NCBI GenBank assembly: GCA_015485385.1
Contig: WFTS01000087.1
Span: 1 to 38,648, forward strand
From: Kordiimonadales bacterium
GTDB lineage: Bacteria > Pseudomonadota > Alphaproteobacteria > Sphingomonadales > Kordiimonadaceae
DNA: 38,648 nucleotides
Direction of reading: 5' to 3'
The first letter of the stretch is position 1, and every line of letters starts with the position of its first letter. Of the stretch, positions 1,038-16,971 are shown piece after piece. The notes under the pieces were generated by a model that was given only the letters and a program-made list of their open reading frames with translations, had not been told where the DNA came from and did no database searches. The position numbers and the translations under genes are program-made.

Positions 1038-2033
1038 TTAAGATTTAACCGCAAGCGTTAACGTGGCCGGGTCAATATTTTCCTGCCACCAATTTATGGT
1101 TTCCCGCAGGCCGTCCTCTAGCGAAACCTGCGGTTTCCAGCCAAGTTCTGCTTCGGCTTTTCTGCAATCAAGCGCCAGTGAAAAATCAATGGTAGGTTTT
1201 GTCGGATCATAAGTGATTTTGAGTGCTTTGCCCGATGCCGCGATGATTTTTTTGGTTAAATCCCGCACACTGATGGCCTTGCCTGCGCCGCAATTATACA
1301 GGCCGTAGTGCGTCCTTTGGTGGGTTGCTGCTCGGTCAACAAAGTTAACCAGATCACTGATAAACAGAAGATCCCGGCTTTCGCTACCCTTGCCCCACAC
1401 GGTTAAGCTCGCCTTGGCGGTCAGGGCTTTGCTGATGGTGGCGCCGCAAACATGGCTGCGCTCAAGATCAAATTTGTCGTGGGGGCCGTAAATATTGGAA
1501 TGACGGATTACCGTATGTTTCGTGCGCCCGAGGCCCGCATAAAATTCACACATGCGCTCCAGATAGACCTTGGTCCAGCCTGCGCCAAAATATTTTGGCT
1601 CAATCTCGCCTGAGAAATCACTTTCTTTCACAGGCACACGGCTAGAGCCGTACATTACAGAACAACTGAAGAATATAAAATGTGCGAGCGAGCGCTCATA
1701 GGCGGCCCGCAGAAGATGCGAATTCATCACAGCATTATCTGTGACATGGATCGCGGGTGAGGATGTGATATCCTTTGCGCCCGAGGTGGTGGCCGCCGCT
1801 TGAATAAGAATATCATGCCCTGCGACCACTTTGTCTGCTGCCTCTGGGTCACGCAAATCCGCCTGAACCCATGATACATTGCTGGGCGTTCTGTAAGGCG
1901 GCTTGCGGTGCCACACAGCCGTTACATGGGCATATTTTTTGGCAAAATACGCAACCATATTGCGGCCAATGAAGCCGGTGGCCCCGCAAATAACGACGCG
2001 TGTGTTGCTTAGATTTGTCTCAGTCGCCGCCAT
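1038..2033 (-). CDS. NAD(P)-dependent sugar-nucleotide epimerase/reductase, extended SDR
   Basis: 331 aa. The Rossmann nucleotide-binding motif GATGFIG is at residues 17-23, and the serine region FFSCSVMYG (121-129) matches the SSxxVYG signature of extended SDRs. The overall look is that of GDP-L-fucose-synthase-like reductase/epimerases. Oddly, the YxxxK catalytic pair reads AGWTK at 151-155: the lysine is present but the tyrosine position is alanine, and the nearest tyrosine is residue 148. Either the active site uses another residue or the enzyme has changed chemistry. It overlaps the 3' end of the GHMP kinase gene by 14 nt and abuts the glycosyltransferase gene with no gap, so the three form one operon likely making and transferring one sugar. 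Substrate unknown. Confidence 0.8.
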   Translation of the reverse strand: MAATETNLSNTRVVICGATGFIGRNMVAYFAKKYAHVTAVWHRKPPYRTPSNVSWVQADLRDPEAADKVVAGHDILIQAAATTSGAKDITSSPAIHVTDNAVMNSHLLRAAYERSLAHFIFFSCSVMYGSSRVPVKESDFSGEIEPKYFGAGWTKVYLERMCEFYAGLGRTKHTVIRHSNIYGPHDKFDLERSHVCGATISKALTAKASLTVWGKGSESRDLLFISDLVNFVDRAATHQRTHYGLYNCGAGKAISVRDLTKKIIAASGKALKITYDPTKPTIDFSLALDCRKAEAELGWKPQVSLEDGLRETINWWQENIDPATLTLAVKS

Positions 2034-3081
2034 CGCCGGGGCCTACTCCATTATGCGTGGTTTTTTGCCAAATACGGCGATACTCGTGGTCATATTTAGA
2101 CGGCATATTCAATAAAATTTGCGGCCCCGGAGCATCCAGTTTCACCGGTACTTGCACATAGGCTTTCAGTTGCTCTTCAATATGGGCTTTTTTGCCTTCG
2201 GGTGCAAAAAGCATCATAAACCCACCGCCCCCGGCCCCAAGCAGTTTTCCGCCAAGCGCCCCGGCTTTTCGGGCTTCTTCGTACAGTTCGTCGATAGGCT
2301 TGGGCGAAACAGCGTTTGATAATCCACGTTTCAGGCACCAGCTTTCATGCAAAAGCTCCCCAAAATTATCAAGCGGTTCGTCGTTTAAAAGTATATCGCG
2401 GGCCTCATAGGCCATTTGCCCCATGCGCCTTAGGTCGGTCTTTTTCTTGGAAAAATTCTCAACCTTGGTAGCCGCAACAGTGGAGGCATGCCGCGAAACG
2501 CCGGTGAAAATAAAGATCAACCGGTCGGATAGTTTTTTAAGGCGGTCCCCGGACAGACCGATCCGCTCTAGGCTAACAGAGCCATTTGGCGCAATCTTTC
2601 CAAAGTTAAAGCCGCCAAAGGCTGCTGCGAATTGGTCTTGAATGCCAACGGTTTCCTTGAGGACATTATGCTCAAGGTCGAAAACGGCGTTCGCGAGGTC
2701 GTAGCTGCTGCTCTCGGTCCCGTCCATCGCATTGAGGGCAGCAAGGAAAGCAACCCCAAAGGTGGAACTAGACCCTAAGCCTGCACCGTGGGGCAGATCG
2801 CCAAAATAGACCACATCAAGCCCGCTTTTTATGTTGCGTTCTTGCAAGGCGGCGCGCACGAACGGGTGTTTAATGGCGGAAATGGCTTCAACATCTTCCA
2901 GTTCGCGCCACACCACGCGGTAGCGAAAGCGGTCAAGCTTTGGTTTTTGCCTAAGCGTGATGGTAATATGATGATCAATAGCCGTAGACAGAAAGACGCC
3001 GCCGTTCTCACGGAACCATTCCGGATAGTCCGTTCCGCCGCCAAAAAAGGACACGCGGTAAGGCGCTCGACTTATAATCAT
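2020..3081 (-). CDS. GHMP-family sugar kinase (HddA-like)
   Basis: 353 aa from the ATG at 3081, chosen because AAAGGAGAG lies just upstream; an upstream in-frame extension to 3105 lacks such a site. The N-terminus RAPYRVSFFGGGTDYPEW is the substrate-binding signature of HddA-type kinases (D-glycero-D-manno-heptose 7-phosphate kinase and related enzymes), the ATP-binding GHMP loop is GAGLGSSSTF near residue 107, and the third motif LGAGGGGFMM is near the C-terminus. It should phosphorylate a sugar or sugar phosphate in the cytoplasm before nucleotide activation. The partner enzymes of GDP-heptose synthesis (GmhA, GmhB) are not in view, so heptose is only one possible substrate. First gene of a three-gene minus-strand operon with an epimerase and a glycosyltransferase. 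Confidence 0.82.
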   Translation of the reverse strand: MIISRAPYRVSFFGGGTDYPEWFRENGGVFLSTAIDHHITITLRQKPKLDRFRYRVVWRELEDVEAISAIKHPFVRAALQERNIKSGLDVVYFGDLPHGAGLGSSSTFGVAFLAALNAMDGTESSSYDLANAVFDLEHNVLKETVGIQDQFAAAFGGFNFGKIAPNGSVSLERIGLSGDRLKKLSDRLIFIFTGVSRHASTVAATKVENFSKKKTDLRRMGQMAYEARDILLNDEPLDNFGELLHESWCLKRGLSNAVSPKPIDELYEEARKAGALGGKLLGAGGGGFMMLFAPEGKKAHIEEQLKAYVQVPVKLDAPGPQILLNMPSKYDHEYRRIWQKTTHNGVGPGDGGD

Positions 3082-3315
3082 GCTCTCTCCTTTGCCCTCG
3101 GCCAAGAGCAGGATTTATCTTCAGGCCGAAAAATACAGTAACCCAAATAGTTTATAGGTAAACCACAAAGCAAAATAAGCGCCAGAATCAAGAGGCTTTT
3201 TAAAAAACCGCGTAGAATAAAAAGCATTTGTTGATTTGCTATAATTGGTTAGGCTGAATCTCAGTAAGAATTGGGGTGTGCTCACTTGAGCATACATGTG
3301 ACGAAGGAGCGCACT

Positions 3316-5139
3316 GTGGCATCACGGCGCGATAAGGCGAAAAAAACCAGAGCAACTATGGATGTGGCGGATGTGGTTCTCCAGCAACGTCAGCGTAGTG
3401 CGCTGAAAGAAGCGGCACGCGCACGTAAATTGCTTTTGGGCGGCGCTCTGCCTGCTGCCCGCAAGAGCTTTGAAGCCTCTATCGCCCAAGCTCCTTATGA
3501 TATGGATGTGGTGGCGCTGGTTGCCGATGGCCTAGCAGAAATGGGACACCGCGACCGAGCCATTGAAATATTGCAAGCTGCTCTGGCTCATAATCCTGCG
3601 AATGAAACTGTTTTGCTTATTGTGGGTAAGATTGCTCAGAATATGGACTGTCCAGATATTGCCGCCAAAGTCTTTGCTGCCGCGATTGACCTGAACCCTT
3701 CAGAGCCTAGCTATTATGTCAATTTGGCTGAAAGTTACCGTCAGCAAGAGCGTGTTGACGAGGCCGTTGATTTGGTGAAAGGGTCGCTGGAAATGTTCCC
3801 CGAAAGCGCGATGCTGTGGAACCTGATGGGGACCCTGATGATCAACCAGCGCAATAATGCATTGGCACTAACTTTCTACCAAGAAGCCCTGCGGCTAGAG
3901 CCCGGCAATGATGCTGTGCTTCTTAATATTGCTAATTTGGAATTTGATGGTGGGGACCCTACAAGCCGCTACCGCCGGGCTATTGCACTTAATCCAGACA
4001 ATCACGCTGCTCATGTGGGTCTTGCGACATATCTGCTTTTGAACGGCGACCTGAAAGAAGGCTGGGAGCATTATGAGCACCGGAAACTGGGCGATGAAGG
4101 CTACGGCAAGTCGGTGCGCTTTACGTTTGATCTGCCAGAATGGACTGGCCAGACACTCGCGGGTAAATCCATTTTGGTGATGGCAGAGCAAGGCCTTGGC
4201 GACGAGCTGTTGTTTGGGCTGAATTTCAAACGGCTCTATGAGGAGGCTGGTCAACTTTATATTGGCTGTGACCCACGTTTGGTTAGTATTTTCAAACGCA
4301 GTTTTCCAAATGCAATCATTGCAGGGTTTGAAGACCAACGCCTAGAGGGCAGGCGTTATAGAAGTTTTCCGTCCATCCAGCGGCATTTAAAGAAAATAGA
4401 TTACGGTGTTTGGGCAGGCTCAGTTCCCCAATATTGGTGGCCTGATACGGCCTCAATTCCACACATGGAAACAGGATATATAAAACCGGAAACAGGGCTG
4501 GTTGAAACATGCCGCCCGCTGGTGGCGCGAAGCGAAGGCCGCTTAAAAGTTGGTATATCTTGGCGCAGCGGGAACCTATCGTTTGAGCGGTCTGAATTTT
4601 ATATGGGATTACGCGGAATTCGTCGGGTTTTGGCGAACAGGCATATTGATTGTTACTGTTTCCAGTACGGCTGGGACCAATCCGAAATTGATTGGCTACA
4701 AAAAGAAATGGGTTACCCGGTTTTCACGTTTCCAGACATTGATCTGAAAGATGACCTTGAAGCCAATTTGGCGCTTATGGCGCATATGGATGTTGTTATT
4801 GGCCCTGCGACCGCAACCCAGCAATTGGCGATGAGCGCGGGCGTTCCTGCGTGGACCATCATGGGGGGAGCCCCTTGGTGGCAGTTCGGGCATAAGGGGG
4901 CAGGGCCAGCGTTTGCACCGGCGTCCGTTTGGTCATGGTGCCAACATGGGCTTGGCCAAGAGGGCCTCTGCCGTATCATTCAGGGCGTGATGGGAGTGTA
5001 TTTTGAAAAATACACGGAGATAAATCTTGCGCTTTTGAAGGCCACTGTTGACCGGGTCGTTGAGGATTATATGGCCGTATTTCCAGACGTTGACATCAAT
5101 GATTTTATGGACACATACGAACAGTCGCTGGTGATTTAA
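3316..5139 (+). CDS. TPR-glycosyltransferase fusion protein (FlmG-like architecture)
   Basis: 607 aa. I chose GTG 3316 because AAGGAG (3304-3309) sits 6 nt before it; the frame is open further upstream to a TTG at 3271. Roughly residues 30-245 are TPR repeats (for example AAKVFAAAIDLNPSEPSYYVNL and the following units). The C-terminal half is a GT-B-like domain as in GT9/GT41-related TPR proteins: EQGLGDELLFGLNF, then VGISWRSGN, then DVVIGPATATQQLAMSAG, which matches the conserved nucleotide-sugar site of that group. The same layout is found in Caulobacter FlmG, which transfers a nonulosonic acid to flagellin. Location next to legC and neuB supports a nonulosonate-transfer role, with the TPRs selecting a protein acceptor; this is inference. 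It converges with legC, with 4 nt between stops. Confidence 0.8.
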   Translation: MASRRDKAKKTRATMDVADVVLQQRQRSALKEAARARKLLLGGALPAARKSFEASIAQAPYDMDVVALVADGLAEMGHRDRAIEILQAALAHNPANETVLLIVGKIAQNMDCPDIAAKVFAAAIDLNPSEPSYYVNLAESYRQQERVDEAVDLVKGSLEMFPESAMLWNLMGTLMINQRNNALALTFYQEALRLEPGNDAVLLNIANLEFDGGDPTSRYRRAIALNPDNHAAHVGLATYLLLNGDLKEGWEHYEHRKLGDEGYGKSVRFTFDLPEWTGQTLAGKSILVMAEQGLGDELLFGLNFKRLYEEAGQLYIGCDPRLVSIFKRSFPNAIIAGFEDQRLEGRRYRSFPSIQRHLKKIDYGVWAGSVPQYWWPDTASIPHMETGYIKPETGLVETCRPLVARSEGRLKVGISWRSGNLSFERSEFYMGLRGIRRVLANRHIDCYCFQYGWDQSEIDWLQKEMGYPVFTFPDIDLKDDLEANLALMAHMDVVIGPATATQQLAMSAGVPAWTIMGGAPWWQFGHKGAGPAFAPASVWSWCQHGLGQEGLCRIIQGVMGVYFEKYTEINLALLKATVDRVVEDYMAVFPDVDINDFMDTYEQSLVI

Positions 5140-5143
5140 CGCC

Positions 5144-6286
5144 TTACTTCAGTGCGGATGCTACGGCTGCGACTGAAAGGGAAATGTCTGCGCCTGAACA
5201 GTGCGTCGAGCAAGGAAGCGGTAGGATACGTTTGTAAATATCCTCGGTGACCTCTAAAGAACCGCGCGGGCTTGCTTGATAAGGTTTTTGCAGATGAAGG
5301 GGTGTCCAGAAGGGACGGGCATCAATGCCGTTTTCACGCAAGGATACGAGAACGTCTTTAATCTGCTTTTCACCCACAGTGAGGAAAGCCCCTGAAAGCC
5401 AGTGCGCGCTTTGCGCCCATACAGGGGTTGGGAAACCCGTGACATGGTCTAAGCCTTTGAAGGCGTCCCGGTATGCATTGGCGATACGGCACTTTGCGCT
5501 TACAAAATCCTCAAAACGCTCTAGCTGCGCGCATCCCACGGCAGCTTGAATATTGGTCATACGGTAGTTATAGCCCACCGCGTCATGGTCATAATTTTCT
5601 CCGGTGCGTGCGGTGGTGGCTAAGTGATTGACCTTGTCGGTAAAGTTTTTGTCAGAGGACACAACCGCGCCGCCGCCGCCACAGGTGAAGGTTTTATTGC
5701 CGTTAAAGGAAAAAACCGTGGCGGTAACGTCTAGGCTGCCGATATTCTGGTCTTTGTAGCGTGCCCCAAGCGCCGCCGCAGCATCGCAGATAACCGGTAA
5801 ACCGTAGTTTTTTGCGGTCCTTGAGATGGCGTCCATATCAGCCGGGGTGCCGAGCATATAAACCGGCATAATAGCCGCGACCCGCCTGCCGGTTTTGGTG
5901 TGGATGATTTGGCTATCCTTTTGGTGGGTTTCTGTGGCCAGGTTTTTCTGCAAGTCTTCTGGGTCAAGTGTCCAACTGTTTGGGTTTACGTCCATAAGCC
6001 ATGGTTCCGCGCCGCAATAAGCGGCTGCATTCGCGGTGGCGATAAAAGTAAGCGACGGCATGATGACCAGATCATCCCGCCCTACGCCCGCCGCAACCAA
6101 GGCAATATGAAGCCCGGCTGTGCCTGAGGCCACAGGTGAACAGTAAGGTGCGCCGCTTACGGCTGCCACGCTGGTTGCGAAGCGGGCGACAAATGGTCCC
6201 ACAGATGAAACATAGCCGGTTTCAATACAGTCATTCAGGTATTTTTTTTCGTTGCCTGAGAGGTTGGGTATTGAAATCGGGATCAT
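5144..6286 (-). CDS. legC: LegC-family PLP-dependent aminotransferase
   Basis: 380 aa, DegT/DnrJ/EryC1 fold. The N-terminus IPNLSGNEKKYLNDCIETGYVSSVG is characteristic of LegC-type enzymes, which aminate the 4-keto-6-deoxy sugar nucleotide made by LegB. The PLP site is visible: CDAAAALGA (168-176) and the Schiff-base lysine K198 in FNGNKTFTCGGGG. Length is usual for the family. Its ATG overlaps the TGA of the neuB-like gene by 4 nt (ATGA), so the two are translationally coupled. The likely reaction is glutamate-dependent 4-amination of NDP-4-keto-6-deoxy-HexNAc in the legionaminic acid route. The symbol follows family similarity; a related nonulosonate or bacillosamine-like sugar is possible. 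Confidence 0.88.
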   Translation of the reverse strand: MIPISIPNLSGNEKKYLNDCIETGYVSSVGPFVARFATSVAAVSGAPYCSPVASGTAGLHIALVAAGVGRDDLVIMPSLTFIATANAAAYCGAEPWLMDVNPNSWTLDPEDLQKNLATETHQKDSQIIHTKTGRRVAAIMPVYMLGTPADMDAISRTAKNYGLPVICDAAAALGARYKDQNIGSLDVTATVFSFNGNKTFTCGGGGAVVSSDKNFTDKVNHLATTARTGENYDHDAVGYNYRMTNIQAAVGCAQLERFEDFVSAKCRIANAYRDAFKGLDHVTGFPTPVWAQSAHWLSGAFLTVGEKQIKDVLVSLRENGIDARPFWTPLHLQKPYQASPRGSLEVTEDIYKRILPLPCSTHCSGADISLSVAAVASALK

Positions 6287-7284
6287 TCAATATCGCCTTC
6301 AAACAAGACATGATTGGCGTCCATATCGCGTGCCGCTTGCTTGCCGATCACGCTTTGGTACATGCCGGGGTCAATGCCGTATTTGGGCGCACGCAGGATA
6401 TTCAGATCGGCGGCCTTTAGCGTACTGCCCTTTTTGATAGGGCGCGCTGTAACTAGGCTTTTCCTTGAATAGCTGCGGTATTTTGTTTCGGCCTCGGTTA
6501 AAGGCCGAAGCGTACCCCCTGCCAAAGCTTTGTCCAGATCACGCACCATGGCTGTGAAAGCTTGAAATTCGTCCGGGTTCAAGGCAGCTTGGTGGTCGGC
6601 GCCCTTGAGGCTGCGGTCATGGGTGATATGTTTTTCAACGATTGATACCCCAAGCCCGATTGCCGCCGCCGCCATAGCGTAACTACTGATATTTTCGGGT
6701 GGGGAATGGTCTTGATAACCAACGGGCAAACCCGTGATATTTTGCAAATTTTGCATATAAACCAGATCAATATCTTCTGGCGGGGTTGGGAAATTTTGCA
6801 AACCGTACATCAGCCAGATCGAGGGGCAGCCGTGTGTGCGCAGCATGTCTGATGCCTGCAATATCTCGTCGATAGAACACGCACCAACGCTAAGGTCAAT
6901 GCGCATTTTGCTGCGCCCCACTGCTTGGAGCAGCTCTAGGTTTGTGATATCTGCCGCGTGAAGTTTGAATGCATCCACGCCGATCTCGCTGCAAAAGTTC
7001 AGGCTTTCCTGTTCGTAGATGCAGGCGATAATATCCATATCGGGGTAATTGGCCCTGACATAAGCTGCGAGCGAACGCCACTGGTCATAACCAAGTTCGA
7101 GCGCTTTCAAAATGGCAAGATCAGGATGATCTGGTGTGACAAGCGCTTCTTTTTTCCAAATTTGAAACTGGATCGCGTTCGCACCGCTTTTGCCAGCGCA
7201 ATCAATGATAGTGCGGGCATGATTTTCGCTGCCGTCATGCGAACAGGCCATTTCGGCGATAATATAGGTGGGGTGCCGCTGCAT
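6283..7284 (-). CDS. neuB: N-acetylneuraminate/legionaminate synthase (NeuB family)
   Basis: 333 aa, normal for NeuB/LegI/PseI. It has a TIM-barrel start YIIAEMACSHDGS (the AEIGxNHxG motif of the family), FKLHAADITNLELL in mid-barrel, the highly conserved IVEKHITHDRSLKGADHQA, and a C-terminal SAF antifreeze-like domain (about 270-333, beginning SRKSLVTARPIKKG). The enzyme condenses phosphoenolpyruvate with a six-carbon diamino or acetamido sugar to form a nine-carbon nonulosonic acid. A GAGG-type ribosome site precedes the ATG. It lies 30 nt after the unknown-family gene at 7315-8592 and overlaps legC, giving a three-gene operon. With LegB and LegC present, legionaminic acid or a relative is favoured over N-acetylneuraminic acid. 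Confidence 0.92.
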   Translation of the reverse strand: MQRHPTYIIAEMACSHDGSENHARTIIDCAGKSGANAIQFQIWKKEALVTPDHPDLAILKALELGYDQWRSLAAYVRANYPDMDIIACIYEQESLNFCSEIGVDAFKLHAADITNLELLQAVGRSKMRIDLSVGACSIDEILQASDMLRTHGCPSIWLMYGLQNFPTPPEDIDLVYMQNLQNITGLPVGYQDHSPPENISSYAMAAAAIGLGVSIVEKHITHDRSLKGADHQAALNPDEFQAFTAMVRDLDKALAGGTLRPLTEAETKYRSYSRKSLVTARPIKKGSTLKAADLNILRAPKYGIDPGMYQSVIGKQAARDMDANHVLFEGDIE

Positions 7285-7314: not shown

Positions 7315-8592
7315 CTACAGGCCGCGTTCGGTCCGGATTTGGTCGATACAAGCTATAAAGTGCTTTTGGTAGTCTGTCTCATTTTCCAGCCATTCATAAA
7401 CATCAGGGCTTGGGTGTAGCCCTTTTTGTCCTGCTGGACGAGAGAGGAAATTAGTCAATATCCTATCAAGCTGGTGTGTGTCGCTGGTTCTGATGCGGTA
7501 GCGCGTGACCGACCAATAGAAAAGCTTTAGCACATCTTCGGCAGAAATTCGGGGAGCTGTCGCCTGTAGCCAGTCGTCAATATTTCTGAAGGGATCGCAG
7601 AAATCGGTATCGTGACTGGCATAATCAAACAGGGGTTTTTCGCAGATAAGCGCGTGCCAATAGGCTTTGCTCATCCAGCACATCATGCCGTCGCAGTGGG
7701 GCATAATGTTGGCGGTCGTAAATGTTTTTGGGTCAATATCAAGATCATCGGCGATGATAACTCGGTCGGTATCTGCAAAAATTTTTATTAGGTTTACCTG
7801 CACGTCTGGTGCGGGTGTGAAGGGGTGCGATGTGACAATCAGTGCGGCATCATCGTCAGCGTGTTCTAGAAAATGATAAATCACATCACACTGGGTCATA
7901 TAGCGTTGGTCATAGACATAATTTACATAGTCTGTCTCGCGCATGCCCGCGCACACAGGCATGGTGTATAGTTTACGGTATGTTTGCCTAAGGCCCTTGA
8001 AAACGGCCTCTATTTCCCCTTGTTGGCGAGGACTTAGTTGGTCCTGCGAATTCATCAGCCGGTAGCCTTCGGCAGCAATATCCGCCGGGATATCGATCGA
8101 AAGCGCTTGTGCTCGGTGGTGGGACAGAAACGAATTTCCATAGAAAAATTCGTCTTCTGTGAGGGCAAAACAGGCAGTGCCTCTGCCGTACCAAGGGGCA
8201 CCGATCGCATCAGCCATCGTAAGGATAACCACGCCCGGGAATAGTTTCTTCAAGTAACCGTGGCCATGGGTGCGCGTGATAATCACGTCCGGCTTTTGGC
8301 CCTTAAACACCGGACGCAGGGCCTCTGCGGCCCGGTCATCATCCATGACATGCAGCACAGATACAGCGGGATCGGCTATCACATGGATGTCTGGGTCATA
8401 GTGACTGGTATCAAAATTTTTGCGCCAATCCAAAGGGATGCCGACACCGAATTCATTCAGAGGCGGGAAAAAATATGTGGTTTTCCAGCCGTATTCATTC
8501 AGCCCCTCAAAGGTGGCTACCACAAAAGTAGGAAGCCAACCCGGTACACATTGTGGACCCCAAAAAAGGATATTCTTTTGCAGATTTGGCAT
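7315..8592 (-). CDS. Uncharacterised glycan-locus protein, paralogue of 11980-13593 protein; possible glycosyltransferase
   Basis: 425 aa; I do not recognise the family. AAAGG precedes the ATG. It aligns along its length with the protein at 11980-13593, sharing LFWGPxC near the N-terminus, YFFPPLNEF, (V/I)TRTxGHxYLKxLFP, VILTMAD, TTANI(M/L)P, SKxYWHAL and KLFYW. No signal peptide or membrane segment is apparent, so it is probably cytoplasmic. The block around 290-325 (a DGM, then SKAYWHALICEKPLFDY) recalls the donor-binding end of GT-B capsule or Kdo-type transferases, where an acidic/aromatic helix precedes a GKP-like turn; this is a structural guess. As first gene of the operon with neuB and legC, a role in handling or transferring the nonulosonic acid is plausible. 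Confidence 0.72.
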   Translation of the reverse strand: MPNLQKNILFWGPQCVPGWLPTFVVATFEGLNEYGWKTTYFFPPLNEFGVGIPLDWRKNFDTSHYDPDIHVIADPAVSVLHVMDDDRAAEALRPVFKGQKPDVIITRTHGHGYLKKLFPGVVILTMADAIGAPWYGRGTACFALTEDEFFYGNSFLSHHRAQALSIDIPADIAAEGYRLMNSQDQLSPRQQGEIEAVFKGLRQTYRKLYTMPVCAGMRETDYVNYVYDQRYMTQCDVIYHFLEHADDDAALIVTSHPFTPAPDVQVNLIKIFADTDRVIIADDLDIDPKTFTTANIMPHCDGMMCWMSKAYWHALICEKPLFDYASHDTDFCDPFRNIDDWLQATAPRISAEDVLKLFYWSVTRYRIRTSDTHQLDRILTNFLSRPAGQKGLHPSPDVYEWLENETDYQKHFIACIDQIRTERGL

Positions 8593-8835
8593 AAGGGCCT
8601 TTGCTTGACTAAAGTTAGAAAATTACCATAGTGTTTTTATAAGGCTATCAATTTTTATGCCAAAAAACCATAGATAGAATAAGGGGTTCCGGTTTGCTGG
8701 CTATGGCGGCTCTGTACTATGCGCTTCAAGGAAGGGCACTGTTGGCAGGGTTTTTGCGTTGTTGAAAACAATAGCGCCATCTTTTTAGGACTTTCACGCT
8801 ATACTGAGCGCAGCTAACAGGAAAAGACCGCTTTT

Positions 8836-9915
8836 ATGCATGATATGCGTATTGCCAACCATAAAGACGTGAAACATTTGTTTGTGACGCCCAATGACAG
8901 CATTTTGGCGGCGCTCGATGTGATTGACCGCGGCGGCCGCAAGACAGCCTTGGTGGTAGACAAGGATTTGCGGCTGGTTGGGATTATAGCTGACCCTGAT
9001 ATCCGACGCGCTCTGCTGAACGGCGTTTCGCTGGAGCAGCCAGTGCATACGGCTATGAATAGCAACCCTATAACGCTTGAACTGGGCATTTCTGACGTAC
9101 AAGCCCGGCAACAATTGCACCGCCATAAACGGGATTTGCTGCCAGTGCTCGATAGCGCAGGTCGGGTGGTTGATGTTGCTCTTCTTGTCGAAGCGCTCGG
9201 CGTACCGCAGATGGATAACGCTGTGGTCTTGATGGCAGGCGGCATGGGCAAGCGGTTATTGCCACTTACTAAAGATACCCCAAAGCCAATGCTTGAAGTG
9301 GGCTCTAAGCCCATGCTTGAAACATTGGTTGAGAATTTCGTCGCGGCAGGGTTTTCAAAATTTTACCTGTCAGTTAATTATTTGCAGGAAGCGATCGAAA
9401 GCCATTTTGGGGATGGGTCCAAATGGGGAGTGGATATTTCCTATTTGTATGAGGACGAGCCCCTAGGCACGGGTGGAGCGCTTTCGCTTTTGGACAAAAG
9501 GCTTTGCGACCCCTTTATCACTATGAACTGTGATGTGTTAACGAAAGTGAATTTTGAAAGCCTGCTCAAGCATCATGAAAATTCGGGCAGTTACGGCACC
9601 ATGTGCGTGTCTCAGCACGAAGTTTCAGTACCATTTGGTGTGGTGGAACACGAAAAATTCAAATTGAAACGCATCGTGGAAAAACCAGTTTGGAATTATT
9701 TTGTCAATGCGGGCATTTATGTGTTCGCGCCAGAAGTGCTTGGCCTTTTGAAGCGCGGCGAGGCTCTGGATATGCCGCATCTCATTTCCCGTATCGATAA
9801 GGCATTTGGCGAAGTGTCGCTGTTTCCCATACGGGAATACTGGCTGGATGTGGGCAGCCGCAGTGCGTTAGAGCAAGCGCGGCAGGATTACCACATCCAT
9901 TTTGGTGAAAAATAA
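8836..9915 (+). CDS. CBS-domain sugar-1-phosphate nucleotidyltransferase (PtmE-like)
   Basis: 359 aa. Two CBS repeats occupy about residues 1-125. A nucleotidyltransferase follows with LMAGGMGKRLLPLT and KPMLEVGSKPMLE (the GxGxRxxPxT...PKP signature), MNCDVL as metal site, and NAGIYVF. This arrangement is that of PtmE, the glucosamine-1-phosphate guanylyltransferase that starts the Campylobacter legionaminic pathway by giving GDP-GlcN. Here it would supply the GDP-sugar for LegB. The CBS pair may sense adenine nucleotides. HddC-like activation of the sugar phosphate made by the GHMP kinase is an alternative. It begins a plus-strand group with the formyltransferase and diverges from the operon ending in legC. 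Confidence 0.86.
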   Translation: MHDMRIANHKDVKHLFVTPNDSILAALDVIDRGGRKTALVVDKDLRLVGIIADPDIRRALLNGVSLEQPVHTAMNSNPITLELGISDVQARQQLHRHKRDLLPVLDSAGRVVDVALLVEALGVPQMDNAVVLMAGGMGKRLLPLTKDTPKPMLEVGSKPMLETLVENFVAAGFSKFYLSVNYLQEAIESHFGDGSKWGVDISYLYEDEPLGTGGALSLLDKRLCDPFITMNCDVLTKVNFESLLKHHENSGSYGTMCVSQHEVSVPFGVVEHEKFKLKRIVEKPVWNYFVNAGIYVFAPEVLGLLKRGEALDMPHLISRIDKAFGEVSLFPIREYWLDVGSRSALEQARQDYHIHFGEK

Positions 9916-9990
9916 TGGGCTTTTGGAAGGGGACTTTGGAAGGCCTAAGGCTTTTCTTATATGTTGCTGGACGCGCGGAAAGGTGCTGGC

Positions 9991-10680
9991 GTGAAAGATA
10001 AATCGGTCCTTTTCATCGGCAGGCAGGGTGACCGTCAGTGCGAAGACATTGTCGCGTACCTCAAGCAAAATTTTACGGATGTACAAGTTTTTTGGTCTGG
10101 CGGTTACGGCGCTGAACTTGACATCGACACACTTTCATGGCGCGGCGACTATATTTTTTGCTACCGCGCGCACGCGATCCTACCCGAAAGCCTGATAGAC
10201 CGCGCAAGCATTGCTGCAATAAATTTCCATCCTGGGCCACCGGAATACCGTGGGATTGGCTGTGTAAACTGGGCGCTTTATGACGAAGCGCATACATATG
10301 GCTCAACGGCTCATATAATGTCTGCTATTGTTGATGCTGGTCCTATATTGGATGTCTGCCGGTTTGATGTTTCCCCGAACGCTTCTCTTGAGGAGGTTCT
10401 TGGTGAAACATATCGCCAAATGGCAAAGCAAGCAAAGAGAGTGATCGGTCTTTTATACAGTGAGGGCCCGGCCGCGATTGATAAAATGCGCGGTCAATCA
10501 AGGGCCGAAAAATGGTCGGATCGGCTGTATAGTAAGCGTGAACTTGAGCAACTATATCAGATTGCCCCCAGTGCATCGTCAAACGAAGTTGCCAAAGTTA
10601 TTCGAGCGACTGTAATTGGTGACTGGAAACCTTTCATCCAGATAGGGCCTCATAGGTTTGATTTGAAAACAAGTGATTAG
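9991..10680 (+). CDS. Sugar N-formyltransferase (formyl-THF dependent)
   Basis: 229 aa from GTG 9991, which has GGAAAGG 7 nt upstream; an ATG at 9961 in the same frame would add 10 residues. The core AINFHPGPPEYRGIG carries the Asn-x-His pair of formyltransferases (compare Fmt and ArnA), and IVDAGPILD supplies the later catalytic aspartate in the expected place. GSTAHIM matches the conserved strand before it. It is shorter than methionyl-tRNA formyltransferase and lacks its C-terminal tRNA-binding domain, as do sugar formyltransferases. It should transfer a formyl group from N10-formyl-tetrahydrofolate to an amino sugar. In this locus the substrate could be the 4-amino sugar from LegC or the nonulosonate itself. 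Confidence 0.82.
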   Translation: MKDKSVLFIGRQGDRQCEDIVAYLKQNFTDVQVFWSGGYGAELDIDTLSWRGDYIFCYRAHAILPESLIDRASIAAINFHPGPPEYRGIGCVNWALYDEAHTYGSTAHIMSAIVDAGPILDVCRFDVSPNASLEEVLGETYRQMAKQAKRVIGLLYSEGPAAIDKMRGQSRAEKWSDRLYSKRELEQLYQIAPSASSNEVAKVIRATVIGDWKPFIQIGPHRFDLKTSD

Positions 10681-10698
10681 GCTCAGCCTGCTGCTCGG

Positions 10699-11727
10699 TT
10701 ATTCCATCATTTTCGGTAATGGGCAGCGGCGGCACATTTCGACATCATAATATTTGTTATCAGCCTGTGTGCGGCGGAAGGCGTTATAGGCATCACTGTT
10801 CCAAATATCATGCAGCTTTTCATCACGCCAATTGCCCATGACAATTTCATCTCTGTCATCAATACAGCAAACGGTAACATTGCCATTATATTTCAAGAAC
10901 ATACGCTGGAAGGGCATCGCACAGTGAAATCCTGGCCGCTCATCAAATTCATGTTGGGCATCGGGGGCGCGCTCGGTATATTTATTGATATTGACCCCAT
11001 CAGCCAAGCCTTCCCACATAATCTTTAGCGCTTCATACTGCCGCTGCCATTTGGGATCATCATACATGACCATTGAAAGCCGGACCTGACATGATGGCCG
11101 CAGTTCGTTGCGTAGCTGAATGAAATTATATGTATTATCAATCACGCGCCCCAGCGTAGTGCCAACGCGCTGCACGGCATAATCTGCAGGGTTAACCGCA
11201 TCGATTGATATGAACATATTGTCGAGGCCAGCGTCTAAGAGGTCACGGCTGTTTTTCTCAGTGAGAGCAGACCCGTTAGAATTCATCATGACATCTAAAA
11301 TGCCTTGTTCTTTAGCGTAGGCAACCTGCCAAACCACATCCTTGTGCAATAAAGGTTCACCTAGATAATTTAACTTGATCGCTTTCACGCCGTGCCGCAC
11401 GCCTTCATCAATGATTTTCTTATAGTCTTCACGACTGATGAAGCCGTAATCCTCAAATTTACCCTCCTCAACAAGAAGGGTTCTGGGGCACATGGGGCAT
11501 TTAAGATTGCAACGTGTTGTTGTTTCAATGTCGAGATGTAAGGGGAAGTCCAGAAAAACTTTGTCTTTTGGAACCCGGTCCCAATCTAACCGATATTGTT
11601 TATATTCTGCGTCGCGCAGTTTTTTCCATTCCTCGGACATCACGCCAATGACAATGTTGGGGCTGGTCTCAAAATCTGATTTTTCCAGTTTCTTGGTCAA
11701 GGCTCTGTCTTTCTTATCTGGGCTCAA
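10699..11727 (-). CDS. Radical SAM/SPASM-domain protein
   Basis: Up to 342 aa. The radical SAM cluster motif CNLKCPMC (CX3CX2C, C73, C77, C80) follows LDIETTTR, and YLGEPLLH is the typical GxP-like strand. The C-terminus has CCIDD, GNWRDEKLHDIWNSDAY and CRRCP, the cysteine pattern and WNS motif of SPASM auxiliary Fe-S domains. Such proteins occur in polysaccharide loci and in peptide modification; the substrate here is unknown. The start is uncertain: the longest form begins with TTG at 11727 without a clear ribosome site, and an internal ATG about 29 codons in leaves the whole core. It converges with the formyltransferase gene (18 nt between them) and is divergent from the 11980 gene. Confidence 0.85.
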   Translation of the reverse strand: MSPDKKDRALTKKLEKSDFETSPNIVIGVMSEEWKKLRDAEYKQYRLDWDRVPKDKVFLDFPLHLDIETTTRCNLKCPMCPRTLLVEEGKFEDYGFISREDYKKIIDEGVRHGVKAIKLNYLGEPLLHKDVVWQVAYAKEQGILDVMMNSNGSALTEKNSRDLLDAGLDNMFISIDAVNPADYAVQRVGTTLGRVIDNTYNFIQLRNELRPSCQVRLSMVMYDDPKWQRQYEALKIMWEGLADGVNINKYTERAPDAQHEFDERPGFHCAMPFQRMFLKYNGNVTVCCIDDRDEIVMGNWRDEKLHDIWNSDAYNAFRRTQADNKYYDVEMCRRCPLPKMME

Positions 11728-11979
11728 GAGGAGCTATCTGCTGTTAAATAGTAAGCAATAAGTATGCCCACACGCAACGGGATTAGTTTTCCCCATTCAG
11801 TTTTTGGGTGCTGCTGTTTCGATTGCTCGGGCTGTCACTATAGAAAGTGACCTTAGAAATTCTTCATAAAATATTTATAACATATTGATATTTAAATGGT
11901 AATCGCGCAGCGCCTTGACACGGATAGGGCGTGTAAATAGGTTGAATTTTGGATCATAACCAGGTGAGGTAGGGGCTGT

Positions 11980-13593
11980 ATGACGCAGGGCGACGATAAG
12001 AAAACACTCTTATTTTGGGGCCCGCACTGTGCGTTTTCATGGCTTGAAGGCTATGTTCTTCGAACCTTTGAGCCCCTTCGGGATCACGGCTGGGATGTTG
12101 TTTATTTTTTTCCGCCGCTGAACGAGTTTCGCCTTGGTATTCCCCTGAATTGGCGGGAAACCCTGATCGGGCAAGACCTTGACCCAAATGTGCATGTTAT
12201 CAAAAACCCGGCGCGGTCGTATATTTACGGAAACGACCATGAGAAAATTGCCGCATCGCTGAAAGGTGATTTTAAGGGCTATGATCCTGATGTGGTAGTG
12301 ACGCGCACGGGCGGACACGACTATCTTAAAATATTATTCCCGCACGCGGTGATATTAACCATGGCAGACGGTATGGGCGCCCCTTGGTTTGGGCCAAACG
12401 CCCACAGTTTTACGCTTACCGAAGACCCTTTGTATTTTGGCAATAGTTTCATGGCCAAATTTGCGGAAGATATTCGCCGCACAGACGTTAGCAAAAAGGC
12501 CCGAGACGCTTGCCTGTGGCTTATGAATGTGCAGGACCGTACCAATTTGTATCGGTCTGAAATTGATAATGCCAGCAGTGAAATTCAAGCATATTTTGAG
12601 ACGTTGTATCAAAGCTTTAAGAAGATTTACATCTATCCAAGTTGGTCCAATGTGCTTGATACACAGTATGTTTTATATTCAGATATGTTTGAATATGAAA
12701 CAAACGCCGACATCATTCATAATTTTCTAGCCGAAAGCGATGAAGATACGCTGTTGCTGGTAACGACCATGCCCAATCACGGCACCAAAGAAGCCGATAC
12801 GGCGTTAATTGATGCTTTTCGCCATACAGACAGAGTGCGTTTTATCAGCGAAGAAAATCTGGATATGTGGCAGTTTACCACCGCTAATATCCTCCCTTAT
12901 GCGGACGGAATGATAAATGCTCTTAGCAAATCTTATTGGCATGCCTTGGCGTGCGGGAAACCTTTTTATAGTTACTTAAAAAACGCGGTTGATTTTGCAC
13001 AGCCAGCCAAAGATCTGCCTTCTCTGGTGAATAAAAAGGCGGAGCCTCTGCCCGAGAAGGATGCTGTAAAGCTGTTTTACTGGTATATGACCCGGTTCCG
13101 TTTTACCCGTAATGATACCGAACGTTTAGCGAGAACGCTTGATAATTTTATCAGTTCATGCGCAAACGGCGAGGAAATACATGCCGATTTTCATGTTTAT
13201 GACTGGGCACAATCGCCTGAGGTGTATGACGCATACCTTTGGGACTGTACGGCCACGCTGAAGGCGGAAGCCCCGCTGAAGGCTCTTAAGAAATACCATA
13301 AAATATGGCTTTATGGGGCCAGCATCGGCGGGATGGACGCTCTGCGAGAATTCGCAGAGGCCGGCCTTGATGTTGCCGGTGTTGCAGACGGCTTTAAAGA
13401 CGGCAACTGGCAGGGCTATGCTGTTATAACACCGGCAGAGCTGCTTGAGGCCATAGGCCCAGATGATGCTGTCTTTATTGCCAGTTCTTTTTGGATGGAA
13501 ATTGTCTATGGCTTGCGCAACGAAGGCCTGACATGCCCTTGTTATTTGCTTAAAAAGCCGGGCATAACCGCAGAAATTTTAAGCTGGGGCTAA
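11980..13593 (+). CDS. Uncharacterised glycan-locus protein with C-terminal Rossmann-like extension, paralogue of 7315-8592 protein
   Basis: 537 aa. The first ~430 residues align with the 425-aa protein at 7315-8592 (shared blocks include LLFWGPHC, YFFPPLNEF, VVTRTGGHDYLK, VILTMADGMGAPW, TTANILPYADGM, SKSYWHALACGKP and KLFYWYMTRFR). The remaining ~100 residues begin IWLYGASIGGMDALREF and continue VAGVADGF, VITPAELL and VFIASSF. This is the nucleotide-binding pattern seen in small Rossmann-like domains attached to sugar-modifying proteins. GAGGT lies upstream of the ATG, and a TTGACA at 11915-11920 could be a -35, but its -10 is poor. Function unknown; a GT-B-type nonulosonate transferase is my best guess. 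It leads a plus-strand group with the cytidylyltransferase 29 nt downstream. Confidence 0.75.
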   Translation: MTQGDDKKTLLFWGPHCAFSWLEGYVLRTFEPLRDHGWDVVYFFPPLNEFRLGIPLNWRETLIGQDLDPNVHVIKNPARSYIYGNDHEKIAASLKGDFKGYDPDVVVTRTGGHDYLKILFPHAVILTMADGMGAPWFGPNAHSFTLTEDPLYFGNSFMAKFAEDIRRTDVSKKARDACLWLMNVQDRTNLYRSEIDNASSEIQAYFETLYQSFKKIYIYPSWSNVLDTQYVLYSDMFEYETNADIIHNFLAESDEDTLLLVTTMPNHGTKEADTALIDAFRHTDRVRFISEENLDMWQFTTANILPYADGMINALSKSYWHALACGKPFYSYLKNAVDFAQPAKDLPSLVNKKAEPLPEKDAVKLFYWYMTRFRFTRNDTERLARTLDNFISSCANGEEIHADFHVYDWAQSPEVYDAYLWDCTATLKAEAPLKALKKYHKIWLYGASIGGMDALREFAEAGLDVAGVADGFKDGNWQGYAVITPAELLEAIGPDDAVFIASSFWMEIVYGLRNEGLTCPCYLLKKPGITAEILSWG

Positions 13594-13622: not shown

Positions 13623-14366
13623 ATGACCACAGGAATATTAATAACAGCACGGCTTAAATCGTCACGTTTGCGCGAGAAAGTTTTAAAGCCGCTCGCGGGC
13701 CGCCCTATGCTGGCATATCTTATCGACCGGTTGCGGCTCTCGCGCCACGGCGACAATATCGTAGTATGTACATCAACGGTGGCACAGGATGATCCGCTGG
13801 AAGAGTTTGCCAAGCTTGAAGGTTTGGGCATCTTTCGTGGGCATCCAGATGATGTGCTCGCGCGCAATTTGGACGCTGCCAAGGCCTTTGGGTATGACCA
13901 TATTCTTAGCTGCACCGCTGATAACCCGTTCATCGACCCGGTGTGGCTAGATAAATTGGGGGATGCCATGGTTGAAGGGGGCTTTGATTTTGGGACCGTT
14001 ACAGGCCTGCCTTTTGGGTGTCACGGCTATAGTTTTACGCGGAATGCGGCTGAAAAAGCCTGCGCTCTTAAAGATGAAACCGATACTGAGGTTTGGGGTG
14101 GCTATTTCACGCAAACGGGGGTGTTTCGCTGCTTGTCGCTGGCGGTGGATGATCCGGCGTATGTGGCACCCCATTACCGGCTGACAGTGGACGAGCAGGC
14201 AGATTTTGATCTGGCTGAGGCCATTATCAAGGCCTTCAAAGGGCAAGATTTGCCAACACTGCCGCAAATCATTAGGTTTCTAAAGGACAATCCATTACTG
14301 GCGCGTACCAATGCCGGGGTGCAGCAAAAACCGGGCAAACCCATTAAAGTTAAGGACAGCCTCTAG
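13623..14366 (+). CDS. SpsF/NeuA-type cytidylyltransferase
   Basis: 247 aa. The N-terminus ILITARLKSSRLREKVLKPLAGRPML is the CTP-binding signature of the SpsF/KdsB/NeuA superfamily (ARxxSxRLxxKxLxxLxGxP). CTADNPFIDP provides the metal-binding aspartate and HYRLTVDEQADFDLAE is the conserved C-terminal block of the SpsF branch. It most likely activates the nonulosonic acid to its CMP form, the step done by LegF, PseF or NeuA. AGGA stands 5 nt before the ATG. Its place directly after the unknown-family gene suggests that gene's product uses the CMP-sugar. The last ~15 residues are poorly conserved and basic. Confidence 0.86.
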   Translation: MTTGILITARLKSSRLREKVLKPLAGRPMLAYLIDRLRLSRHGDNIVVCTSTVAQDDPLEEFAKLEGLGIFRGHPDDVLARNLDAAKAFGYDHILSCTADNPFIDPVWLDKLGDAMVEGGFDFGTVTGLPFGCHGYSFTRNAAEKACALKDETDTEVWGGYFTQTGVFRCLSLAVDDPAYVAPHYRLTVDEQADFDLAEAIIKAFKGQDLPTLPQIIRFLKDNPLLARTNAGVQQKPGKPIKVKDSL

Positions 14367-14505
14367 CGCTTAGGGAAGGCTACCGGAACTGTTGCTAACA
14401 GCTTGTAGCTAGACCGTTTTTGGCACCATATGTGCATTTATTAAGGCTTATTTGATAAATAATTTTGCAGCAAATTTTATGCGCGCAGTTTCCGGAGTAA
14501 CCTTT

Positions 14506-15720
14506 ATGACATTTCCCGGCACTTTTTATTTGCTCGATCCGCTGTTTTCTGGTCGGGCTGGGCATGCGATGAATTTTGGCGGCGGTGTTGCGCGGGCGGC
14601 GTCTCAGCGGAATATCCTCATGAAAATGGTGGTCAGCAAAAAAATTCCAGATGAAGCGGCAGCCAGTTATCATGCACTGCCGGTTTTCACTATTTCAGAC
14701 GAACTGCAAAAAGTGCGACACCAGCCTGTGACATCCCAAATTGACCCTGCATTTTATGCGGCCTATCGGGATAATTTGTGTGATCTTGAGACACAGTTAA
14801 CCAACGAAGATATTCTGTGGGATTATTATCTTTTGGGGCCGATACAGGTGGATATTTATTCCAGATGGTTGGAAAGCATTGCCCCTGAAAAGCGCCCTAA
14901 GGTGATGGTTGGTGTCGATGTTTATACCGACCTATGGTATGATTGGCTGGCACCAATTGCCGATAGGCTGCGTGCGCTGGAGCCGTGGTTCAGGGTCACA
15001 TCCACCAGCTTTATCAATGCGAAAAAAGTTGGGGAGCAGTTGGGTATCAAAGTACAGTGGATGCCGCGACCTAAAATGGCTCGGCCGGCCTCTGAGGCGG
15101 TTCAAGACCCGGCAATCGTTGAAAAATTAACCGCACCAGTGGGGCAAGACGGGCCGCTGGTTGGCTATTTTACTGATCCAAGCAAGATGAAATCCTTCCA
15201 TCTGTTGCAAGATATAATCCCGGTGCTTTTGCGTGAAACCAGCTTGCGGTTTCTGTTGCAAATTAGGGGGGAACCAGCAGAAGAGGACTGCAAGGCCAGT
15301 TTGGCTGTGTTGCGCAAAACCGCAGAAATGTATCCGGGCCGGCTAAAATTTGTTGAAGGTGTCTTGGATTATGATGCCTATAAAACCGCAATAGAACTGT
15401 GTGATGGTATGATTGTTGCCTATGATCCGCGCTCTCATTTTGCCAATACGCCGTCGGGTACGGTTTGCGAATCGCTTGCTGTCGGTACAATCCCGATTGC
15501 GGTTGCGGGCACCTCGATGGAAAAAGAAATGCGGCTGTTTGATATTGATATCCCTGTGCTACCAGAACAGACAACCGAAGATTTTCTGGCACTTTTGCGA
15601 GATTTTGAACAGAATAGCCAAACGTGGCTCACGCGGAACAAAACTCAGATTGAAAAATGGAACCAGTTCCAGTCGCACGATAACCTGTTTGAGCATCTGT
15701 TTAACACGGCGTGGCAATAG
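14506..15720 (+). CDS. GT-B-like glycosyltransferase family protein
   Basis: 404 aa from the ATG at 14506, chosen for the GGAG 8 nt upstream; in-frame TTG/ATG codons at 14452 and 14479 lack ribosome sites. Early FPGTFYLLDPLFSGRAGHAMNF resembles the N-terminal glycine-rich acceptor loop of GT-B enzymes. In the C-terminal half, LVGYFTDPSKMKSFHLL, FLLQIRGEP, LDYDAYKTAIELCDGMIVAYDP and SGTVCESLAVGTIPIAV correspond to GT4-type donor-site strands, including the ExxAxGxP helix. Cytoplasmic sugar transfer is expected; substrates are unknown. It follows the cytidylyltransferase by about 140 nt on the same strand. Confidence 0.75.
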   Translation: MTFPGTFYLLDPLFSGRAGHAMNFGGGVARAASQRNILMKMVVSKKIPDEAAASYHALPVFTISDELQKVRHQPVTSQIDPAFYAAYRDNLCDLETQLTNEDILWDYYLLGPIQVDIYSRWLESIAPEKRPKVMVGVDVYTDLWYDWLAPIADRLRALEPWFRVTSTSFINAKKVGEQLGIKVQWMPRPKMARPASEAVQDPAIVEKLTAPVGQDGPLVGYFTDPSKMKSFHLLQDIIPVLLRETSLRFLLQIRGEPAEEDCKASLAVLRKTAEMYPGRLKFVEGVLDYDAYKTAIELCDGMIVAYDPRSHFANTPSGTVCESLAVGTIPIAVAGTSMEKEMRLFDIDIPVLPEQTTEDFLALLRDFEQNSQTWLTRNKTQIEKWNQFQSHDNLFEHLFNTAWQ

Positions 15721-15957: not shown

Positions 15958-16971
15958 ATGGGGCCAAGAGGGGCGATTTTGGATATTCGGAACAAACATA
16001 TTTTGGTTACGGGGGCGGATGGCTTTATAGGGTCGCACCTTGTTGAAAAGCTTTTGTCGCATGGGTGCCGGGTTCGGGCGCTGGCGCAATATAACAGCTT
16101 TAATTCATGGGGGTGGTTAGAGGATATCGCTGGGCATGAAAGCTTGGAAATCATCAGCGGGGATGTACGCGACGCGGAATTTTGCCGTACGCTTTGCTCT
16201 GATATTGATGTGATATTCCATCTTGCCGCCTTGATTGCCATTCCTTATTCTTATATTGCCCCGCAAACCTATGTGGATACAAATGTTTCGGGCACATTAA
16301 ATATATGCCAAGCGGCGAAATCTGCAGGTGTTGAACGAGTTATAGTAACCTCAACAAGCGAGGTATACGGCACTGCGCTTTATGTCCCTATTGATGAAAA
16401 ACACCCCAAGCAGCCACAATCCCCTTACAGTGCCTCAAAAATTGGTGCAGACAGTATCGCTGAGAGTTTTTATCACGCATTTGACTTGCCGCTTGTGGTC
16501 GCACGGCCGTTCAATACTTATGGGCCTCGCCAGTCGGCGCGCGCAATCATTCCCACTATTATTTCACAGCTGGCGGCGGGTAAGGAAAAGATCAAACTGG
16601 GTGATTTATCGCCCACGCGTGACTTTAACTTTGTCACAGACGTATGTGACGGTTTTGTGCAACTTGCACAATGTGATACTGCGATTGGCCGCGAGGTGAA
16701 TATCGGTTCGGGGGTGGAAATATCTATCGGTGATTTGTTTGATATGATCCAGAGCGTTATGGGAACCAATGCAGAAGTTGTGACAGACAACATCCGAATG
16801 CGTCCCGAAAAATCTGAGGTTTTCCGTCTGCTGTGTGACAATAGCCTGATCACGGAGCTAACCGGCTATAGCGCTGCACACGACCTTAAAGCTGGCCTTC
16901 AAAAAACCGTAGATTGGCTTTTAAAGCCAGAAAATAAAGCCAAATATAAAGCCAATATCTATAATGTTTAA
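15958..16971 (+). CDS. legB: LegB-type NAD-dependent sugar-nucleotide 4,6-dehydratase
   Basis: 337 aa, extended SDR. VTGADGFIGSHLVEKL is the NAD site. ALAQYNSFNSWGWLE is a hallmark of LegB enzymes, HLAALIAIPYSY and TSTSEVYG give the active-site strand, SPYSASK the catalytic YxxxK, and RPFNTYGPRQSARAIIP the substrate-binding stretch. LegB converts GDP- or UDP-GlcNAc to the 4-keto-6-deoxy sugar, the first committed step toward legionaminic acid. AGGGG precedes the ATG at 15958. It is separated from legC and neuB by 9 kb and stands alone on the plus strand, converging with the aldo/keto reductase gene. Confidence 0.9.
   Translation: MGPRGAILDIRNKHILVTGADGFIGSHLVEKLLSHGCRVRALAQYNSFNSWGWLEDIAGHESLEIISGDVRDAEFCRTLCSDIDVIFHLAALIAIPYSYIAPQTYVDTNVSGTLNICQAAKSAGVERVIVTSTSEVYGTALYVPIDEKHPKQPQSPYSASKIGADSIAESFYHAFDLPLVVARPFNTYGPRQSARAIIPTIISQLAAGKEKIKLGDLSPTRDFNFVTDVCDGFVQLAQCDTAIGREVNIGSGVEISIGDLFDMIQSVMGTNAEVVTDNIRMRPEKSEVFRLLCDNSLITELTGYSAAHDLKAGLQKTVDWLLKPENKAKYKANIYNV

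Follow-up and report, generated by a model that had tools for sequence, protein, structure and literature searches.

Two paralogues in a nonulosonate gene cluster as candidate CMP-ulosonate glycosyltransferases distantly related to KpsS

The contig WFTS01000087.1 of a Kordiimonadales bacterium (assembly GCA_015485385.1, family Kordiimonadaceae), analysed over its full 38,648 nucleotides and called the window below, bears a cluster of genes for a nine-carbon sugar acid, among which two paralogous proteins are encoded, A (7315–8592, minus strand, 425 amino acids) and B (11980–13593, plus strand, 537 amino acids). An earlier note on this DNA proposed that they could be a new class of nonulosonate transferases. 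According to the analysis described here, A and B probably belong to a small, rare, unnamed family of glycosyltransferases dependent on cytidine monophosphate (CMP)-activated ulosonates, with a predicted GT-B fold and a donor-binding half akin to that of KpsS. The proposal is thereby supported as far as CMP-sugar glycosyltransferases are concerned, given the homology to KpsS, a fold search, and the gene neighbourhoods, and is given up in two respects: the family is neither confined to nonulosonates nor wholly unrecognised.

Relationship of A and B to each other, to a second clade, and to KpsS

A and B are 40% identical in BLASTP (170 of 427 columns, 338 bits, E 2e-116), and all six sequence blocks that had been quoted as common to them are found in both. 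The statement that they match no known family holds for B, for which no Pfam or NCBIfam model reaches its cut-off, but not for A, which passes the Pfam model PF05159 (Capsule_synth; E 7.5e-6, 26.1 bits, cut-off 20); the two are better described as distant relatives of KpsS. The single Pfam row of B, which has no PF05159 row, is a poxvirus VLTF3-like one and is attributed to chance, its 12.9 bits lying far under the cut-off of 25. NCBIfam returned no row for A, B, their homologue C (see below), or the two second-clade members tried, and neither the UDP-sugar 2-epimerase model PF02350 nor a TPR domain, as in FlmG, matched A or B at E up to 1. About 100 residues at the C-terminus of B (residues 434–537; 13279–13593, plus strand) have no counterpart in A, and no Pfam family reaches its cut-off there. 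Over 99 amino acids, this extra domain is 37% identical to the C-terminal end of another predicted transferase (L046:3708-5504), which the same genome encodes beside neuB and a NeuC-type epimerase gene on contig C127. Might it be an accessory domain common to nonulosonate transferases?

Homologue C was found in Eilatimonas milleporae; it is 29% identical to A and matches PF05159 under the cut-off (E 0.0053, 16.7 bits) in the same region as A. Searches with A recovered the family in 2 of 29 genomes of the same taxonomic family and in 1 of 385 genomes of the class, and searches with alignment A1 in 1 of 398 genomes of the phylum and 2 of 99 of the order, each tally here and below including the window's own genome. 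The family was absent from 18 genomes of the same genus, some of them incomplete, that were searched with A. A pattern scan of genome contigs with A1 matched 22 stretches, of which one was confirmed (Eilatimonas); in viral contigs, 2 stretches matched the pattern of A and 32 that of A1, none of them confirmed, and no member was found in plasmids searched with A or in phages searched with B. The pattern scans, fitted to the A/B/C clade, did not pick up the second clade.

The latter emerged when 396 genomes of the order were searched with a profile of A, B, and C (E up to 0.01): 10 of them had members, which apart from A, B, and C themselves lay at nine places in eight genomes from a different family of the order, perhaps Sphingomonadaceae (E 6.6e-8 to 0.0076), with matches limited to the C-terminal half. 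In direct profile comparison by hhalign, the similarity between A/B/C and five of the eight intact second-clade proteins (alignment A7) extends over nearly the full length (columns 7–373, E 8.2e-14), and the score of 106.7 compares with 25.2 for the best of 200 column shuffles. Taken singly, A, B, and C match the same five proteins with E 3.5e-8, 1e-7, and 2.7e-7, respectively; the scores of three control GT-B-like proteins range from 14.5 to 27.7, with 0.0067 as their best E. In a tree, A, B, and C stand on one side and the eight second-clade proteins on the other with full support; within A/B/C, where the branches are long, the branching order is not settled. The ninth place (L057:6137-7266), at which a family gene is split across two reading frames, was left out of the tree as well as of A7 and of the joint alignment A8, which comprises 11 proteins (A, B, C, and the eight).

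For the comparison with KpsS, an alignment of 18 sequences (A5) was used, composed of the genome's own KpsS (L048:14454-15896) and 17 of the 26 KpsS loci fetched from the family's genomes (L021, L025, L030, L032, L033, L035, L037, L038, and L039 were left out). All 18 keep the Q and D of the QXXXD motif, as well as KxHP and NST. The A/B/C profile matches them over residues 206–348 of A with E 3.8e-5 and a score of 46.1, compared with 27.1 for the best of 300 column shuffles and 13.7 for the reversed profile. The five second-clade proteins do so with E 3.1e-7, the 11-member profile with E 8.1e-10 (score 79.1, 128 columns), and A alone with E 6e-4, while three other GT-B-like proteins of the genome score 11, 15, and 25. 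Moreover, when the 11-member profile was run against 367 genomes of the class, 3 gave matches, and the two proteins found outside the own genome (E 3e-4) are both KpsS-like in context, as judged by eye. On these profile comparisons, A, B, C, and the second clade are related to KpsS over the C-terminal, donor-binding half only. Since the genome's own KpsC and KpsS are encoded on contig C135, A and B do not represent these two proteins.

A divergent PF05159 protein (L045:11006-12217; 33.6 bits, cut-off 20) is encoded in a genome of the same genus after neuB, cytidylyltransferase, and flippase-like genes. It bears HYFPE in place of QXXXD, is weakly similar to A/B/C (E 0.0095), and is perhaps an independent nonulosonate transferase.

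Conserved residues, predicted fold, and catalytic mechanism

In the QXXXD motif, the Gln binds the carboxylate of 3-deoxy-D-manno-oct-2-ulosonic acid (Kdo). This Gln is absent from all 11 aligned family members, its position being held by C, W, D, or E, so that QXXXD with its Gln occurs in 0/11. Invariant are R107 (numbering of A), the strand-end P212, an acidic residue seven positions further (E219 in A, Asp in B and C), D301, and K309. S308 is common to all but L065, which has Thr (10 of 11), and the HP motif has its Pro in all 11 and its His in 10, the exception being B with Met. In every member the acid sits one residue later than the Asp of QXXXD would; hhalign nevertheless places it on the motif Asp of KpsS by means of a one-residue insertion, in two alignments that share A, B, and C and are not independent. 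According to the passages available of PMC10148158 and PMC12887879, the QXXXD Asp is the residue on which the sugar adduct sits in WbbB, KpsC, and KrkA, and their HP His is used for CMP.

By analogy with these enzymes, the following mechanism can be proposed. The C-terminal Rossmann domain, homologous to KpsS, would bind CMP via the HP motif (H256-P257 in A) and the phosphate-binding S308, and the family-specific N-terminal domain would choose the acceptor. The donor would be the local CMP-sugar, which in the window would be a legionaminic-type nine-carbon acid made by LegB, LegC, and NeuB and activated by the cytidylyltransferase, and in some relatives a Kdo-type eight-carbon acid. E219 of A (Asp in B) would attack the anomeric carbon, as in retaining Kdo and pseudaminate transferases, a second acid near D128 would activate the acceptor hydroxyl, and the ulosonate would become attached to cell-surface molecules. 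The assignment of the base is tentative because the candidate acids of the two clades, aligned by hhalign, lie one column apart in the MAFFT alignment. The anomeric configuration would likely be retained, with a caution imposed by the lost Gln and the sialate-type donor.

KpsS and the family have homologous donor-binding halves with the Pro, the acid, HP, and the S/T motif in the same order, but the family shows no N-terminal similarity to KpsS and lacks the QXXXD Gln. With the retaining beta-Kdo transferases GT99 (WbbB), GT107 (KpsC), and GT140 (KrkA), it would share the CMP-ulosonate donor and does share the HP motif and an acid at the nucleophile position; it differs in the motif P-x(6)-[DE] without Gln, WbbB and KrkA being compared by description only. 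GT118 KpsS1, a retaining pseudaminate transferase with 30% identity to E. coli KpsS (as described in part of PMC12887879), is alike as a KpsS-related enzyme moved to a nine-carbon sugar, a likeness of description rather than of sequence.

Taken with its fold search, the AlphaFold2 model of A points to a GT-B-like protein with two Rossmann domains and no further; the model of B (mean pLDDT, the predicted local distance difference test score, 49.6) was not used. Foldseek ranks the CMP-sialate polysialyltransferase first and second (5wc6 and 5wcn, E 3e-6) and the UDP-GlcNAc 2-epimerase 1f6d third (E 6.4e-6). Going by their titles, the 37 matches with E <= 0.001 presumably comprise 35 glycosyl- or polyol-transferring enzymes, one UDP-GlcNAc 2-epimerase, and one phosphofructokinase, and the matches of a viral fold search were for the most part glycosyltransferases of a general kind and proteins without a name. 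The GT-B-like donor site that had been suspected in the shared C-terminal block is supported by the homology to KpsS and PF05159, the fold comparison adding to it with low confidence. Endonuclease G and kinase rows in PDB profile searches are regarded as chance (E about 1).

The leading fold matches raise the alternative that these CMP-ulosonate transferases are of the inverting type, like the polysialyltransferase GT38, with direct displacement, one base, and no covalent intermediate. GT38, whose HP motif and Ser serve the CMP phosphate (accessible passages of PMC5517516), is the best fold match, and QXXXD is found in none of the 11 members. Further, it is argued in the Discussion of PMC12887879, as far as available, that evolution may not easily lead Kdo-like retaining enzymes to sialate-type sugars, to which, with their equatorial C5, these enzymes would be ill-suited. 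However, the sequence likeness is to KpsS, which is related to retaining enzymes, and the invariant acid aligns with the nucleophile-motif Asp, with the insertion and the lack of independence mentioned above; GT38 itself has no sequence match to the family, and profile searches of the PDB bring up no polysialyltransferase chain at E up to 10. Inversion is considered rather unlikely, and retention is preferred.

With the HP histidine lost from B, the two paralogues may not be equivalent as enzymes. Judging by its sequence, B may be impaired, being either a weak enzyme or a partner subunit. It is also a serious, though not the favoured, possibility that B, unlike A, has no catalytic activity left and acts as a partner in a complex with A or as its regulator. 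The change from HP to MP is the sole one among the 11 proteins, and the branch of B is longer than that of A (1.09 vs 0.46; the tree run also flags the letter make-up of B); in the passages available, HP-His mutants of KpsC are severely compromised (PMC10148158) and KrkA H227A shows no activity (PMC12887879). On the other hand, B retains both acidic positions, the Ser, and K309, and a synthetase gene adjoins it.

Gene neighbourhoods and the sugar donor

A match to the cytidylyltransferase model PF02348 lies within 5.1 kb at 11 of the 12 family-encoding places and within 3 kb at 10 of them, compared with an expectation of 0.7–2.4% for a random place (5.1 kb); A is counted within this distance only just, and A and B share one synthetase. 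The neighbours in the window are as the earlier note had claimed. The CMP-sugar synthetase (cytidylyltransferase) gene (13623–14366, plus strand, PF02348 E 5.9e-20) begins 29 nt downstream of B, and the gene for a NeuB-family synthase (6283–7284, minus strand, PF03102 E 9.3e-46) lies 30 nt downstream of A on the same strand, overlapping by 4 nt with that for a LegC-family aminotransferase (5144–6286, minus strand; TIGR04181 409.6 bits, just under the cut-off of 420). The NeuB-family protein scores under the NeuB and PseI equivalog cut-offs.

The same synthetase partner occurs in four differing arrangements. Besides neuB/legC in the window, there is neuB with an RraA-like gene in Eilatimonas, where a cytidylyltransferase gene, neuB, and the free RraA-like gene lie 2.5 to 4.8 kb from C on the opposite strand. 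At five second-clade places (L058, L059, L060, L061, and L063), the cytidylyltransferase is directly downstream, with a PF02348 match <=50 nt from the gene end in 5/5, the cut-off being passed beside L058, L059, and, barely, L060. At L062, L064, and L065, the family gene is followed by genes for a KdsD-type isomerase, a cytidylyltransferase fused to an RraA-like domain (L062:4768-6078, L064:8414-9742, and L065:8446-9945), and a KdsA-type synthase. The genes next to L062 reach the cut-offs of the KdsA, KpsF/GutQ subfamily, PF02348, and RraA models. Scans covered the fusion at each of the three places; the Kds-type genes at L064 and L065 were assigned by eye. A gene read by eye as flagellin (L065:2564-3478) lies about 3 kb upstream of the L065 family member.

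The expectation that homologues would be tied to nonulosonate genes did not survive. No neuB occurs within the fetched 14 kb at any of the nine second-clade places (the nearest, in genome G996, is about 25 kb off), three of the eight second-clade genomes have no neuB at all, and three places have kdsD/kdsA-type genes instead. With these neighbourhoods, the narrower claim of nonulosonate donors fails, and the wider one of CMP-ulosonates with eight or nine carbons (C8 or C9) stands.

Several observations weigh against the assignment to KpsS-related CMP-ulosonate transferases. In addition to the missing Gln and the lost histidine of B, no similarity to KpsS is seen in the N-terminal half (E 0.68, score 12.3), the similarity to KpsC is weak (E 0.005–0.008), and none of the eight second-clade proteins scanned passes PF05159, with one sub-threshold row (L059, 11.7). 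Taken alone, L064 matches KpsS with E 0.058, C with E 0.14 and in a region other than the donor half, and B marginally (E 0.013), its score of 27.1 being hardly above the 25.2 of the unrelated window protein 14452–15720; B alone would not prove kinship with KpsS, since control proteins score up to 25. Against the second clade, the NeuC-type epimerase reaches 27.7 (E 0.0067), which exceeds the shuffles, and a share of the signal therefore reflects GT-B likeness in general. The model of A has low quality (mean pLDDT 62, predicted TM-score (pTM) 0.60, three sequences), with pLDDT under 50 in the loop bearing E219, and its domain arrangement is unreliable because the query-normalised TM-scores are 0.18–0.27 among the 50 matches listed. 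No chain of KpsC, WbbB, or KrkA is among these 50, and PDB profile searches with the family returned no transferase. Finally, the split gene L057 is the sole one of the 12 places with no synthetase nearby, and the neighbourhood counts are not independent, since members of one clade share descent.

The gene cluster of the window and what the family may mean

Among the other genes of the window are those for the LegB 4,6-dehydratase (15958–16971, plus strand; TIGR04180 494.7 bits, over the cut-off of 475), a CBS-domain sugar-1-phosphate nucleotidyltransferase (8836–9915, plus strand; PF00483 and PF00571), which we take to be PtmE-like, and a formyltransferase-family protein (9961–10680, plus strand; PF00551 E 6.5e-10), a candidate for N-formylation of the sugar. 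A radical SAM/SPASM protein (10699–11727, minus strand) is encoded inside the nonulosonate cluster; a longer radical SAM protein adjoins the L062 family member, its likeness to that of the window being local (30% over 120 columns). At the left end of the contig, an epimerase and GHMP kinase pair (1038–3105, minus strand) is possibly a further sugar-activation branch.

The protein 3271–5139 (plus strand), with TPR matches, is named FlmG-like by its layout and is a rival transferase for the nonulosonate. It shows 32% over 553 columns to a TPR protein encoded on contig C78 beside flagellin genes and a neuB second to that of the window; with the one on C127 counted, this is the third neuB, accompanied on C78 by a PseG-like gene and the FlmG-like gene (PseG and flagellin were named by eye). 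The genome thus seems to hold two FlmG-type enzymes with two nonulosonate clusters. FlmG, a flagellin pseudaminate transferase, works with NeuB products in an alphaproteobacterium, as stated in the passages available of PMC7591256; unlike A and B, it combines a TPR domain with another transferase domain. Since the FlmG-like protein of the window is a second candidate for moving this sugar, in its case to flagellin, A could serve lipopolysaccharide or capsule.

The presence of this FlmG-like paralogue, FlmG being a known pseudaminate transferase (PMC7591256, same passages), and of seemingly further transferases at 14452–15720 and 1–1037 (by eye), also allows A and B to use a UDP-, GDP-, or dTDP-sugar, with the ulosonate being moved by another enzyme such as 3271–5139. 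This is improbable, given the likeness of the donor half to KpsS and the place of the relatives right next to a cytidylyltransferase gene or among genes of the kdsD, synthetase, and kdsA types. Far less probable still is that A and B stand in for the hydrolysing 2-epimerase LegG, which is missing from the cluster. GT-B-like folds are common to such epimerases, no Epimerase_2 match occurs in the window, 1f6d holds the third rank of the fold search, and the weak match of the NeuC-type epimerase to the second clade fits as well. But the genome (93% complete) has its sole Epimerase_2 match in just this NeuC-type 2-epimerase on C127 (418 bits, cut-off 236), which adjoins another neuB and has no match to A/B/C (E 0.21), and it is hard to see what a 2-epimerase would do for the relatives that stand with kdsA-type genes.

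The preferred reading of A and B as CMP-ulosonate glycosyltransferases has a bolder form, which is unlikely as it stands: an undescribed family that moves both C8 (Kdo-type) and C9 (legionaminate- or sialate-type) CMP-ulosonates, with P-x(6)-[DE] replacing QXXXD and with A and B as an active/inactive pair. In the literature searched, which did not cover the second clade, PF05159 together with nonulosonic acid was not found, and Kordiimonas was not among the matches listed.

In annotated pathways for nonulosonates and Kdo-like sugars, it is often the transferase that is missing. With the family, its conserved residues, and its operon partners delimited, such transferases become recognisable, and the natural variants of the QXXXD site offer a way to study how a single scaffold switches between donors of the C8 and C9 types. 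If the bolder form is true and A retains the configuration on a sialate-type donor, this would contradict the published expectation on Kdo-like retaining enzymes.

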